Positions 11,240-22,744 of a stretch of DNA of 22,744 bases are shown piece by piece. Source of the DNA: a virus; the IMG/VR virus record IMGVR_UViG_3300006916_000425, positions 1-22,744 of that record. One strand, given 5' to 3'. The number at the start of each line of letters is the position of its first letter. Position 1 is the stretch's first letter. Under the pieces are notes generated by a model. It searched no databases. It had not been told where the DNA came from and was given only the letters and a program-made list of their open reading frames with translations. The position numbers and the translations under genes are program-made.

Positions 11240-11641
11240 TTATTTCTGAAATTGCAGAGAATATTGTCTGCCATTGTGTGTGAATTTTACAATGGAATGA
11301 CTATATACAGTTTTCACTTCTTCTTCGTATCTTGTTTCTACTGTGCAAAATCTTGCAGGTTGTGCTTTTGCTTGACTGTTGTTGTGACCTATAATACCAC
11401 CAATGACTGCGCCTACTGCACCCCCATTGTCTACGTTCTTTGTCACGTTATTACCAATCAGACCACCAATAATAGCACCTTTGAGCATATCACCTGACCT
11501 GTCTCCTGATACTGTTCTATCTGTACAGACTTCTACCTGATATGGTTTCTTAATGATGACTTGTTTGTTTACATCAGTCACCGTTTGAGCATTTGCTGTT
11601 GTTGTAAATAGTGCAATTGCACCAATCAAAATATACTTCAT
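11240..11641 (-). CDS. Exported glycine-zipper protein
   Basis: A 133-aa protein with a signal peptide (MKYILIGAIALFTTTANA, likely cut before Q19) and a glycine-zipper segment at about 54-86 (GAIIGGLIGNN, GGAVGAVIGGIIG). This is the arrangement of bacterial 17-kDa-antigen/2TM glycine-zipper envelope proteins. Two cysteines (C39, C99) could form a periplasmic disulfide. The C-terminal part (YEEEVKTVYSHSIVKFTHNG) looks like beta strands. It lies between the MazG-like and RuvC-like genes, with a TAATG overlap upstream. An envelope role such as superinfection exclusion or membrane modification is inference; acquisition from a host is plausible. Confidence 0.75.
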   Translation of the reverse strand: MKYILIGAIALFTTTANAQTVTDVNKQVIIKKPYQVEVCTDRTVSGDRSGDMLKGAIIGGLIGNNVTKNVDNGGAVGAVIGGIIGHNNSQAKAQPARFCTVETRYEEEVKTVYSHSIVKFTHNGRQYSLQFQK

Positions 11642-17740: not shown

Positions 17741-18160
17741 TTAAAATATCTCTTTCCACGGTAAATGTGATGCTAAGAATCCAAGAACTAGTGCGCCACC
17801 AATAATAGTCCAGCGCCATTGTTCTAACTTGTTCAGTCTTTCGTTCATTTGTTTATGATGTTCTTGTTGGTCTGCTCGTAGACATTTAAGTTCATCCATG
17901 ATTTTCTTATGAGATTTATCTATTTCCAATTGAACCTCTTCTCTATGCTGTGTTATTCTTTCGTGAATAATTTCTACGTTCTGACCCAATGCTGTCTCCT
18001 GAGTGTCTACTCTACTCTCTTGAACAGCAATCATGCGATTTAGTGAAGTAGCAACTTCAGATATCTTTTCGATTGCAGTGTCAAGTTTATCAATCACTTT
18101 ATTCAGTTGAGTGATATCTTTCTTAACTAATGCAATTTCTGTGCGAAAGTCTTCGTTCAT
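17741..18160 (-). CDS. Coiled-coil protein with C-terminal membrane anchor (XhlA-like layout)
   Basis: A 139-aa protein: residues 1-112 form a long heptad-rich coiled coil (LVKKDITQLNKVIDKLDTAI onward) and about 117-134 a single membrane helix (WTIIGGALVLGFLASHL), ending in PWKEIF. The layout is like XhlA-type holin-associated proteins and other tail-anchored phage proteins, but sequence identity to them cannot be judged here. The ATG overlaps the end of the upstream gene by 4 nt. Together with the next genes upstream it forms a lysis-like cassette. Confidence 0.65.
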   Translation of the reverse strand: MNEDFRTEIALVKKDITQLNKVIDKLDTAIEKISEVATSLNRMIAVQESRVDTQETALGQNVEIIHERITQHREEVQLEIDKSHKKIMDELKCLRADQQEHHKQMNERLNKLEQWRWTIIGGALVLGFLASHLPWKEIF

Positions 18161-18420
18161 TTCTCTAACTCGCTTATTCTTGCCTCTAATTCATCAATTT
18201 TTTTGGTGATGCGAGGATATCTTTTTCTCCAGATGTCTTCTGGTTCTTGTAACCATGTCCATCCCCATCGATGAACAAGATAATCTAAAATTCTATCAAA
18301 GTATGCATATGCCCATAGTCCCATTCTAGTGTCTCTAAACCAAGCAAGAAATGCGGCACCTAAAAGTGCGCCAATTATACTTGTGTATATCCAGAGAGTA
18401 TCACTGAATAAGTCTACCAT
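18157..18420 (-). CDS. Small membrane protein, holin candidate
   Basis: An 87-aa protein with one clear membrane helix (about 9-28, LWIYTSIIGALLGAAFLAWF) followed by FRDTRMGLWAYAYFDRILDY and a tryptophan-rich, charged C-terminal part (RWGWTWLQEPEDIWRKRYP) that ends in a short coiled coil. Size and position among spanin genes make it a holin candidate, but the extended cytoplasmic domain is unusual for one and no holin family is recognised. Overlaps both neighbours by 4-7 nt. Confidence 0.6.
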   Translation of the reverse strand: MVDLFSDTLWIYTSIIGALLGAAFLAWFRDTRMGLWAYAYFDRILDYLVHRWGWTWLQEPEDIWRKRYPRITKKIDELEARISELEK

Positions 18421-18899
18421 GTTCTAGGTGCCGAACTCTTAATTGCGAAACGTCCAAATGCACGAACTGCATAGTATGCGGAATATTTCTTCCAACTTGC
18501 GACTTTAGGTTCAGTGTCTCCCATTGCTTCTAAAAATACATCGTCTGCTATTTTTCTCAATTTCTCAAATGTTGAGGGTGTTACTGTTTCGCGTACTGCG
18601 TTAATTTTTTCATATAGAATATCATGTATAACAGCAGGTCTTGCTACATCGAATGGTGCAATAAATGCCCAACATGCTCTCGGTACTGATGCCATATCTG
18701 TCACATAACCTAGAGGCACCGAGATTTTACCAGTTTGATAGATTTTAACATCTACTTTACATGAAGAGAACAACTCCATTTGTTCTTTGGTTAATGATGC
18801 GGTATAGGTTAATGGTTTCTCTAGTCTCCACTTTTTAGGTCTCTTAAAAGACCCAATAAGAAGTCCATTCCATTTACTTCTCTTGTCCGGATTTGGCAT
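18414..18899 (-). CDS. DUF1353 family protein
   Basis: A 161-aa protein carrying the DUF1353 signature: ISVPLGYVTDMASVPRACW (59-77) and AVIHDILYEKI (89-99), plus ADDVFLEAMGD (118-127). DUF1353 proteins occur widely in tailed phages near lysis or tail genes; their function is not established. The ordered histidine-aspartate pair in HDILYE suggests possible metal binding. The start at 18899 overlaps the end of the lipoprotein gene by 26 nt. A TATAAATA box lies 79 nt upstream inside that gene. Confidence 0.8.
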   Translation of the reverse strand: MPNPDKRSKWNGLLIGSFKRPKKWRLEKPLTYTASLTKEQMELFSSCKVDVKIYQTGKISVPLGYVTDMASVPRACWAFIAPFDVARPAVIHDILYEKINAVRETVTPSTFEKLRKIADDVFLEAMGDTEPKVASWKKYSAYYAVRAFGRFAIKSSAPRTW

Positions 18900-19254
18900 C
18901 TGTATCTCCCTCGTAGTAATCTCGGTACTGTATTATTATTTCTTTTTGTGTACCAAGAAATGTTTTAATGTCTGCAATATTTATACTAAGTGCTTCGTAA
19001 CCATCTGCAGTCAGCGCAAATAGAGCAATTGGTTGTCCCTGTGCTTCTAGTTCTTCAAAAATTTGCTCTGCATTCTCTCTTGTAACCACAATCCAACTAG
19101 TATCTCGCAATGCTAAAGGTTCTGGATTAGGTAAATTCAAAGCAGGTTTAGATACTTCTACTTTGACTGTTTCAATCTGCTTGACAGGTTCACGAAATAA
19201 CGTACAACCAGATAGCAAGATTACACTACTCAGCAGTAAGATTTTCAATATCAT
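18874..19254 (-). CDS. Outer-membrane lipoprotein, o-spanin (Rz1-like) candidate
   Basis: A 126-aa lipoprotein: the signal peptide ends in the lipobox LLSGC, with C17 as the lipidated residue, and the mature part begins TLFREPVKQIETVKV. A proline-rich stretch (KPALNLPNPEPLAL) follows, then a folded region (WIVVTRENAEQIFEELEAQ, FALTADGYEALSIN). Directly upstream and overlapping by 29 nt is a membrane-anchored coiled-coil protein, which is the i-spanin/o-spanin arrangement. It is longer than typical Rz1. Spanin pairs fuse inner and outer membranes in the last step of lysis of Gram-negative hosts. Confidence 0.75.
   Translation of the reverse strand: MILKILLLSSVILLSGCTLFREPVKQIETVKVEVSKPALNLPNPEPLALRDTSWIVVTRENAEQIFEELEAQGQPIALFALTADGYEALSINIADIKTFLGTQKEIIIQYRDYYEGDTDAKSGQEK
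18978..18985 (-). promoter_or_regulatory. Possible T4-type late promoter box TATAAATA
   Basis: A perfect TATAAATA on the minus strand within the lipoprotein gene, 78 nt before the DUF1353 start at 18899. It could give extra late transcription of DUF1353 and the two membrane protein genes. Being inside coding sequence, it may be chance. Confidence 0.35.
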
Positions 19255-19600
19255 TTAACACATCCTTTGTACCTTTATTTACAATACGCTCTATTAATTT
19301 TGGTTTCTCTACTGCAAGATAGTTAATATCATGGTCTGCAAGTTTCTTCTGCAACTCTGCTTTTGCACCATTCAACTCTTTTACTTTATCTGTCAGTTCA
19401 ACATTTGCAACCATAATCTGTTCATAAGATTTCTTTTGCATCGCAATAACTTCTTGTTGCTCTGTGATACTCTCTTCAAGTTTTATTTGATTACCTTTGA
19501 GTATTTCATTATCGTGCTGTAATTGTTTTACATAGTAAAAAGCACCACCTGCTCCCGCAAGTAGCACTACAACCATAGCAATTTTAATTGAACTAAACAT
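19226..19600 (-). CDS. Inner-membrane i-spanin (Rz-like) candidate
   Basis: A 124-aa protein with an N-terminal membrane helix (about 6-25, KIAMVVVLLAGAGGAFYYV) followed by a long periplasmic coiled coil (about 27-95) and a polar C-terminus. This is the standard i-spanin layout, and the o-spanin-like lipoprotein gene overlaps its end, as in many Rz/Rz1 pairs. The start at 19600 overlaps the upstream gene by 8 nt. Evidence is architectural, as spanins diverge rapidly. Confidence 0.75.
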   Translation of the reverse strand: MFSSIKIAMVVVLLAGAGGAFYYVKQLQHDNEILKGNQIKLEESITEQQEVIAMQKKSYEQIMVANVELTDKVKELNGAKAELQKKLADHDINYLAVEKPKLIERIVNKGTKDVLNDIENLTAE

Positions 19601-22062: not shown

Positions 22063-22611
22063 TTACGCACTAATTGTAAGTGTGCTTGTTACACCAGCGA
22101 TTGCGACTGCGGCATTAACTGCTTCGCCATCAACCAAGGTACCACCAGCAAGTGCAATGTTCTGGTCAGCAATTGACAGTACATCATCTTCTGCTACACC
22201 ACCATCAGCGGCGGCATAAGTAGCACGGAATGTCAATTTGTTGCGACCTGAACCAGACTGATATGTTGCAGTAAATGTTGCATCAGTACCAGAACCTGCT
22301 TGGTCATTAGTTACTGTGATAGTTGGTGAACCAGTTACAGTAATCTTCTCGTTGAATGAAACAGCAATGTCGATGTTACCACCTGCCGCTTCGCTGAACG
22401 TAGTAGTTGTGAAGTTAACTGCAGTTACATCTGCAATGTTTAGTTTAGTAGAAGCAGACAATTGTCCAATTGCTACTAATACTTCTTCTAGACCCGTATT
22501 TGGATCACGATATACCCATCCGCGACTATCTGCGAATGTATCTGTTTTTTGCGCGGCAGTTAACCATTTAGGTTTTGCCTCGTTTGCGTCTGTTGCGCCC
22601 CATGAAGACAT
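22063..22611 (-). CDS. Virion protein with Ig-like beta-sandwich module
   Basis: A 182-aa protein. The N-terminus (SSWGATDANEAKPKWL, then SRGWVYRDPNTGLEEVLVAIG) resembles leaders of small virion proteins of marine T4-like phages. From about residue 60 it matches the pattern of bacterial adhesin Ig-like repeats: AVSFNEKITVTGSPTITVT, ATYQSGSGRNKLTFRATY, DDVLSIADQNIALAGGTL. Such modules on phage heads or tails bind glycans loosely. A late box at 22658-22665 and an AGGAG site precede the ATG at 22611. It could be a head decoration (Hoc-like) or tail fibre component; placement cannot settle this. Confidence 0.75.
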   Translation of the reverse strand: MSSWGATDANEAKPKWLTAAQKTDTFADSRGWVYRDPNTGLEEVLVAIGQLSASTKLNIADVTAVNFTTTTFSEAAGGNIDIAVSFNEKITVTGSPTITVTNDQAGSGTDATFTATYQSGSGRNKLTFRATYAAADGGVAEDDVLSIADQNIALAGGTLVDGEAVNAAVAIAGVTSTLTISA

Positions 22612-22634: not shown

Positions 22635-22744
22635 TTAGAAACCGTGTTTCTTTAAAGTATTTATAGTTCTTTTAACGTCAGTGTGATGAATACCTATACC
22701 ACCTGCCGCTTCCCATTCACGAATATTTTTGATATAATCATCAA
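22635..22744 (-). CDS. C-terminal fragment of a HAD-like hydrolase
   Basis: A frame enters from the right edge and stops at 22635 (about 35 codons visible). The peptide has DD at the edge, then NIREWEAAGGIGIHHT and RTINTLKKHGF. This resembles the end of small phage HAD-superfamily phosphatases or deoxyribonucleotidases, where DD-x-x-x-N-x-x-x-W-x-x-x-GG-x-x-I follows the last catalytic aspartates. Only this end is visible, so the substrate cannot be named. Its last codons contain the late promoter of the next gene. Confidence 0.6.
   Translation of the reverse strand, partial: DDYIKNIREWEAAGGIGIHHTDVKRTINTLKKHGF
22637..22651 (-). other. Hairpin at the predicted 5' end of the late virion transcript
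   Basis: On the minus strand AGAAAC-ACG-GTTTCT forms a perfect 6-bp stem with a 3-nt loop. It starts seven bases after the late box, so the mRNA would begin at or beside the stem. Such 5'-terminal stems can slow decay of a message. Confidence 0.45.
22658..22665 (-). promoter_or_regulatory. T4-type late promoter box TATAAATA
   Basis: A perfect TATAAATA on the minus strand, 46 nt before the ATG of the Ig-like virion protein at 22611 and inside the last codons of the HAD-like gene. Transcription would start near 22652 and run through the virion and lysis-like genes. Confidence 0.65.

Follow-up and report, generated by a model that had tools for sequence, protein, structure and literature searches.

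A predicted phospholipase A2 of the DUF1353 family in a putative lysis module of a T4-like marine phage

Lysis of Gram-negative hosts by phages is usually told as three steps, performed by a holin, an endolysin and a spanin. In the virus record IMGVR_UViG_3300006916_000425, a linear fragment of 22,744 bases that we analyzed at its full length (the window), a spanin pair is followed by genes for a DUF1353 protein, a small membrane protein (SMEM) and a coiled-coil protein, which raises the question of what DUF1353 contributes to such a locus and where the endolysin is encoded. The original prediction, made from the sequence alone, offered two answers: either the endolysin lies elsewhere, or DUF1353, with its HDxLYE motif, takes part in envelope breakdown. 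Our analysis suggests that DUF1353 is a phospholipase A2 (PLA2) that serves a phage lysis module by attacking membranes, a reading to which we assign a probability of about 0.6. The nearest annotated match to the window is the T4-like marine Pelagibacter phage HTVC008M, and further matches are to cyanophages, Methylophilales phages and Pelagibacter phage Mosig.

The window protein scored 61.8 bits against the DUF1353 family PF07087 (gathering cut-off 22.5; E = 4.9e-17). Only H92, D93, D119 and F122 are invariant in a set of 28 homologues, drawn from contigs of viruses and bacteria, and a second set of 24 homologues, ordered on a compact homologue, has invariant H71, D72, D87 and F90. The pair H92-D93 is the HD of HDxLYE, and H92, D93 and D119 align with the catalytic His, Asp and Asp of group XIV PLA2s, which suggests that the likely target of DUF1353 is membrane lipid. 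The proposal of a role in envelope breakdown thus survives in a changed form, with the lipid taking the place of peptidoglycan, and we conclude that DUF1353 is not a peptidoglycan hydrolase. For the comparison with PLA2s, we aligned segments of four solved group XIV enzymes (8k1w, 7ygk, 4aup and 1faz) into a profile; the PLA2 family PF09056 had been sought for this purpose (0/4 genomes, 0/400 and 1/398), and its lone match (L098), for which no plasmid relatives were found, led to the solved PLA2s. Using hhalign, the DUF1353 profile matched the four PLA2s with a probability of 89.9, an E-value of 1.7e-6 and a score of 38.6, and three blocks fell in register: HDxxY, DxxF, which holds the Asp of the dyad, and a C-terminal YxAVRxFG. 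None of 200 column shuffles reached this score (maximum 17.3), the reversed profile scored 10.1, and seven other cassette or neighbor families scored at most 17.0. When residues of 1faz are numbered from H64 of the literature, its Asp opposite D119 in the alignment is D85. The nearly invariant D68 of the window protein (28 homologues) stands at what we take to be the position of the PLA2 calcium ligand, and PLA2s of this type use calcium. Taken together, these alignments argue strongly for PLA2 homology of DUF1353.

The original prediction had also suggested modeling the structure of DUF1353. The model of the window protein, built with 28 sequences, had a predicted local distance difference test score (pLDDT) of 86.6 and a predicted template modeling score (pTM) of 0.84, and its best solved match was PLA2 8k1w, which ranked first of 997 chains in a VIA comparison (Z 6.7, 101 aligned residues, root-mean-square deviation 3.8) and was followed by an entry at Z 5.4. 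A model of a second member of the DUF1353 family (pLDDT 87.1) placed 8k1w first at Z 7.1, with 4aup (5.8), 7ygk (5.7) and 1faz (5.4) all in the top ten. In a viral fold library, the significant matches of the DUF1353 models include a named DUF1353 protein. We consider the structural support for a possible PLA2 fold to be moderate.

A biochemical precedent exists in a distant member of the family. For TtaP, a DUF1353 protein of the Salmonella Typhi typhoid toxin islet, PLA2 activity, with calcium-dependent cleavage at sn-2, has been reported from a fluorescent assay and lipid analysis; H70, D71 and D85 are its predicted catalytic residues, and a D85A variant is inactive (PMC11525133). TtaP resembles the window protein in its Pfam family, in the aligned His-Asp pair and second Asp, and in that no signal sequence is reported; its gene adjoins one for a lysis-type enzyme, the phage-type muramidase TtsA. 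The two differ in that TtaP is encoded by a bacterial islet gene, whereas the gene of the window protein belongs to a lytic phage of the T4-like kind, where its neighbors are spanins and a small membrane gene dedicated to it, and in the spacing from His to Asp, which is 27 residues in the window protein and 15 in TtaP. The group XIV secreted PLA2s (8k1w, 7ygk, 4aup and 1faz/1lwb) share the HDxxY, DxxF and YxAVRxFG blocks, whereas the window protein differs from them in its N-terminal half, lacks a signal peptide by eye and has no conserved cysteines, as neither of its two (47 and 76) is conserved among the 28 homologues. The record of Pseudomonas phage AH02 already names its DUF1353 gene 'phospholipase'.

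We also asked which genes neighbor DUF1353 in other phages. From 38 clusters at 70% identity, the T4-like marine clusters (L004, L012, L013, L019, L028 and L064) and bacterial contigs (L075-L078) were left out, which gave 28 unrelated viral records, one per cluster. Each whole record was searched for four peptidoglycan-hydrolase families (PF00959, PF05838, PF01510 and PF00182). Nine of the 16 matches lay within 2 kb of DUF1353, where 1.9 were expected under uniform placement (P = 1.2e-6); two of the 16 are in records under 10 kb, and exclusion of such records left 7 of 14 matches within 2 kb (0.91 expected; P = 4.7e-6). With a CHAP protein (L046) and annotated endolysins (L081, L082 and L083) included, a peptidoglycan hydrolase stands beside DUF1353 in 13 of the 28 records. 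Two records with an apparent lysis enzyme next door that gave no clear family match (L054 and L087) were counted as without. In L057, a holin, a GH19-like enzyme, the match of which falls below the Pfam cut-off, and a small lipoprotein precede DUF1353. Six of nine further DUF1353 phages were examined (LucasX, D6 and FNU4 were left out), and four of these have an endolysin, lysozyme, peptidase or holin near DUF1353: in Carin1, membrane proteins, an amidase and a lipoprotein precede DUF1353, with the amidase two genes away; a lysozyme adjoins it in Bjorn and a peptidase in Funu2; and in FNU_1P a holin adjoins it and an endolysin is nearby. Bakedbeans and Psa21 had no lysis gene near DUF1353, as judged by annotation. 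A comparison of neighbors gave at least 8 peptidoglycan-hydrolase and at least 2 holin members among 121 near genes (first 25 of 59 families) and at least 1 such member among 84 far genes (first 25 of 38 families); this comparison was set aside, and we relied on the whole-record test. Separately, the DUF1353 genes on bacterial contigs L075, L076 and L078 (Dehalococcoidia, Prosthecobacter) have no recognized phage neighbors.

In the window, all five open reading frames were recovered in the order and at the positions first described, on the minus strand with successive overlaps of 29, 26, 7 and 4 nucleotides, within a longer same-strand run (Table 1). The reported absence of lysozyme, amidase and peptidase motifs also held, as no peptidoglycan-hydrolase family scored meaningfully in the five cassette proteins (Pfam, PHROGs and NCBIfam); a Pfam scan of ten other window proteins found none either. 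The i-spanin matched phrog_739 ('Rz-like spanin', 5.7e-14) and the o-spanin matched phrog_812 ('Rz-like spanin', 1e-10). The i-spanin has hydrophobic residues 1-25, as read in near-identical relatives, and the o-spanin N-terminus ends in LLSGC, a lipobox by eye, so that the overlapping genes have the makeup of a two-component spanin, with an N-terminal-membrane i-spanin and a lipoprotein o-spanin. The overlap and the PHROGs matches are as in the lambda Rz/Rz1-type spanins, whereas in the window no recognized endolysin or holin adjoins the pair, and the predicted phospholipase and SMEM are inserted after it. The predicted Gram-negative host fits the nearest cultured relatives, which infect Pelagibacter and Methylophilales. 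In comparisons with relatives L007, L008 and L012, the ratio of nonsynonymous to synonymous substitution rates was 0.14-0.20 for DUF1353, 0.10-0.18 for the coiled coil, 0.15-0.18 for the spanins (non-saturated comparisons only) and 0.08, 0.59 and 0.46 for SMEM, which evolved fast in two of the three. We conclude that the cassette is under purifying selection, which is weaker on SMEM.

Table 1. Cassette genes and their neighbors in the window, in order of transcription.
Feature	Position	Strand	Description
DUF7207 protein	20707-20342	minus	first listed of the same-strand run shown around the cassette
250-aa protein	20345-19593	minus	between DUF7207 gene and i-spanin gene
i-spanin-like protein	19226..19600	minus	124 aa; N-terminal membrane segment and coiled coil
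o-spanin-like lipoprotein	18874..19254	minus	126 aa; 29-nt overlap with i-spanin gene
DUF1353 protein, predicted phospholipase A2	18414..18899	minus	161 aa; PF07087
SMEM, small membrane protein	18157..18420	minus	87 aa; single N-terminal membrane segment
Coiled-coil protein	17741..18160	minus	139 aa; C-terminal membrane anchor; DUF7201
DNA primase	17703-16702	minus	directly after coiled-coil gene in transcription order

The arrangement recurs in marine relatives. With the window DUF1353 as query, 31 viral loci were recovered. Of these, 27 are window-like (L004-L030), although they are not independent, as they form five clusters when grouped at 70% DUF1353 identity. In 25 of the 27, spanins are found no more than 3 kb from DUF1353, and in the other two (L017 and L027) the contig breaks off close to DUF1353; the coiled coil lies within 3 kb in 12. 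The spanins are upstream in 12 of the 25 loci, as in the window, and downstream in 13, whereas SMEM follows DUF1353 in 26 of the 27 whichever side the spanins take. Because SMEM stays behind DUF1353 while the spanins switch sides, we conclude that DUF1353 and SMEM move as a pair. In a sixth T4-like cluster (L064), on which the SMEM profile was not run, genes of 58 and 54 amino acids follow DUF1353. Among cultured phages, Melnitz, which infects Methylophilales, has the order of the window without SMEM: i-spanin (1.7e-18), o-spanin (9.3e-26), DUF1353 (8.7e-19), coiled coil (1.1e-34) and primase. The order in HTVC008M is DUF1353 (9.2e-18), i-spanin and o-spanin pieces, coiled coil and primase, and in Mosig only the coiled coil of the cassette was found within the 41 kb examined. 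In the deposited HTVC008M genome, the i- and o-spanin homology is split across reading frames at 117049-117800 (L002:17050-17800), which may reflect sequencing error or decay. Other loci carry additional genes: the 99% identical relative L004 has an extra reading frame of 157 amino acids (L004:6825-7298), absent from the window, between the 250-amino-acid gene and the i-spanin gene, and in L024:9907-10743 and L016:4655-5134 the o-spanin is followed by a secreted-looking protein of ~260-278 amino acids (phrog_20531, unknown) and a membrane protein of 159 amino acids (phrog_32327, unknown).

SMEM has hydrophobic residues 8-28, as read in relatives of identical length, and gave no family match above any cut-off and none among 50,697 phage records. 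A match of the SMEM profile in phiM12 (E = 2.5e-4) falls on a DUF7207 protein and was discarded. The XhlA model scored below its cut-off of 34.7 for both SMEM (17.2 bits) and the coiled coil (22.9 bits), and phrog_1193 'hemolysin' matched them at 0.022 and 1.8e-4, respectively; holins are poorly covered by such models. The coiled coil belongs to DUF7201 (3.4e-13; 49.9 bits, cut-off 27), and its homologues adjoin DNA primase in HTVC008M, Mosig, Melnitz, DLP_6 and phiM12. We consider SMEM a likely membrane partner of DUF1353.

The endolysin question was addressed through the relatives. The HTVC008M endolysin belongs to phrog_3513 (1.4e-60), as does a Mosig protein annotated as a glucosaminidase, and it is encoded 24 kb downstream of DUF1353 on the same strand. 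Eighteen relative records with DUF1353, SMEM and spanins were searched, and five of them (L016, L022, L023, L024 and L030) contain a relative of this glucosaminidase-type endolysin. In each case it shares the strand of DUF1353 and lies 20.3-21.1 kb downstream of it, so that in T4-like relatives the endolysin is far from the spanins. The GH108 endolysin of Mosig had no match in the 18 records, in a search made without a positive control. The window retains 18.4 kb downstream of DUF1353, and an endolysin at an offset of 20-24 kb would fall just outside it; the window's missing endolysin therefore probably lies just past the edge, which agrees with the suggestion that it is encoded elsewhere. By eye, a hydrophobic stretch stands at the N-terminus of the endolysin in HTVC008M and in four relatives, which suggests that endolysins of this type, with a signal or anchor of their own, may reach the periplasm without a large pore. 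For Melnitz, a curli pore and a SagA-like endolysin have been proposed to control lysis, and the same report states that Melnitz lacks other lysin-like genes (PMC9004378); the word DUF1353 does not occur in it.

Based on these findings, we propose that the cassette is the lysis module of a T4-like marine phage with an added phospholipase. The spanin pair would join the inner and outer membranes, as its family does, and the endolysin would be supplied from ~20 kb downstream, beyond the fragment. DUF1353 would cut membrane phospholipids into lysophospholipid and fatty acid, the activity being that of its family member TtaP, and the cleavage would weaken or permeabilize the membranes at lysis. 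Because it has no signal peptide by eye, the window DUF1353 is probably made in the cytosol, and SMEM, encoded next to it, would be its likely partner at the membrane. The DUF1353 proteins of HTVC008M and Melnitz instead have a membrane segment of their own at the N-terminus (residues 16-43 in Melnitz; by eye in HTVC008M). Residues rich in Lys and Arg follow this segment in both phages, and under the positive-inside rule such a flank lies on the cytosolic side, which would place the enzyme there. We conjecture that the enzyme could be quiet in the cytosol and switched on by calcium that enters the leaking cell, given that known PLA2s of this type use calcium.

Several observations weigh against a lytic PLA2. 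A search of solved structures with the 28-homologue profile gave no PLA2 and two chance matches (E = 0.21 and 1.2), Foldseek against the PDB returned nothing at E <= 0.001 for either model, NusB scored Z 6.9 for the second family model, and all VIA Z scores were below 8, a level that is not decisive alone. Group XIV enzymes are recognized by two disulfides and a signal or pro-sequence, and the window protein lacks these features, including the disulfide cysteines; we thus describe it as a predicted PLA2 that is not classed as group XIV. Among the unrelated viral records, seven of the 16 hydrolase matches lie at least 8 kb from DUF1353 (Arash (2), XaC1 (2), pVa-21 and two Helicobacter prophages), and 15 of the 28 records have no recognized peptidoglycan hydrolase beside it. 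Among the T4-like relatives, 13 of the 18 records, near-identical ones included, gave no match to the HTVC008M endolysin; most are short, but records of 56 kb and 170 kb (L064) are among them.

Other observations bear on what else a PLA2 could do for a phage. Parvovirus and densovirus VP1 carries a PLA2 domain, and a DUF1353 PLA2 might similarly be carried in the virion or tail and act at entry, which we consider unlikely. PHROGs labels the family 'tail assembly chaperone', tail-fiber families are also common neighbors of DUF1353 in other phages, densovirus VP1 and structural proteins come next below the significant matches of the DUF1353 models in the viral fold search (non-significant, E 0.1 to 0.8), and, in Francisella phage KIRK, the DUF1353 gene lies among head and tail genes (PMC7924643). 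However, the PHROGs label rests on homology, the neighbors in the window are spanins, and the 13 unrelated records described above pair DUF1353 with a peptidoglycan hydrolase. Also unlikely is a role during infection in which the enzyme remodels lipids of the host or provides fatty acids, with its place near lysis genes owed to shared late expression. TtaP reportedly stays with the cell, and the assays made on a ttaP deletion detected no change in envelope integrity (PMC11525133), a result that counts against a lytic role as well; against lipid remodeling stands the repeated placement of DUF1353 at lysis loci of phages that otherwise differ in their genes. A bolder variant, which we hold to be quite unlikely, replaces the holin with an enzymatic membrane breaker: DUF1353, held at the inner membrane by SMEM or its own segment, would cut the lipids of that membrane until it collapses, which would free or activate the endolysin and admit calcium that speeds the enzyme further. 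The N-terminal signal or anchor of the HTVC008M-type endolysins, seen by eye, would make a large holin pore unnecessary in those relatives. If true, phages that infect SAR11 and OM43 bacteria would possess a lysis trigger of a new class.

It is very unlikely that DUF1353 keeps the PLA2 fold but has lost catalysis and serves, for instance, to bind membranes or to assist assembly. The moderate structural support and the missing disulfides would fit such a protein, but precisely the residues that align with catalytic positions are invariant, and TtaP is reported as active and its D85A variant as inactive (PMC11525133). One form of the envelope-breakdown proposal, that DUF1353 replaces the endolysin and cuts peptidoglycan, would suit the lack of an endolysin among the window proteins scanned but is highly improbable, as DUF1353 has no peptidoglycan-hydrolase signature and is homologous to PLA2s, and separate endolysins occur in HTVC008M and 5 of the 18 relatives, and beside DUF1353 in other phages.

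A PLA2 of the lysis module, the reading we prefer, has partial parallels. A patatin-type PLA2 has been proposed in a lytic cassette of phage WO with a holin-like protein (PMC9203015), which likewise makes a phospholipase part of such a cassette; patatin is an unrelated enzyme family, the WO cassette has neither spanins nor endolysin, and the role is putative there too. Mycobacteriophage LysB, an esterase of mycolyl-arabinogalactan that acts with holin and endolysin, is also a lipid-directed hydrolase of a lysis cassette, different in fold and host envelope (PMC5707550, PMC8309991). Our searches of the open-licence PMC literature, which does not include bioRxiv, returned no report of a phospholipase of this kind in a spanin, endolysin or holin cassette. 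The accessible text of three papers gives no phage lysis role for DUF1353 (PMC11525133, PMC7924643, PMC6591296), a fourth also contains the name (PMC9848294), and a paper on a Caulobacter gene-transfer agent proved unrelated to it (PMC13236601). The point of note is that a putative lysis module of a phage includes a protein of the PLA2 family, which recurs in unrelated phages and is present in culturable ones. With a phospholipase that recurs in the company of endolysins, holins and spanins, lysis would gain a step in which lipids are cut, and some phages may thus dissolve membrane lipids when leaving the host cell, as judged from sequence. The lysis role would give a function to a family filed by PHROGs as 'tail assembly chaperone' and by Pfam as unknown, and the typhoid toxin islet, with its phospholipase and muramidase, could preserve two parts of one former prophage lysis module. 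The cassette is testable in Melnitz and HTVC008M, which are cultured phages of abundant marine bacteria.

Three further features of the window were observed. The sequence TATAAATA (22658-22665, minus strand) resembles a T4 late promoter and lies ~46 nucleotides ahead of the gene at 22611 that opens the run; late-promoter-like sites of the TATAAATA type number 4 in the window against 2.25 expected, a count that 18 of 100 shuffles reach and that is not above chance, and it was not used. At 11240-11641, the phage encodes a glycine-zipper 2TM protein (PF05433) with an N-terminal signal-like stretch. A 2OG-Fe(II) oxygenase-like protein (PF13640; 16133-16720) adjoins the DNA primase, and one is found near this block in phage DLP_6 too.

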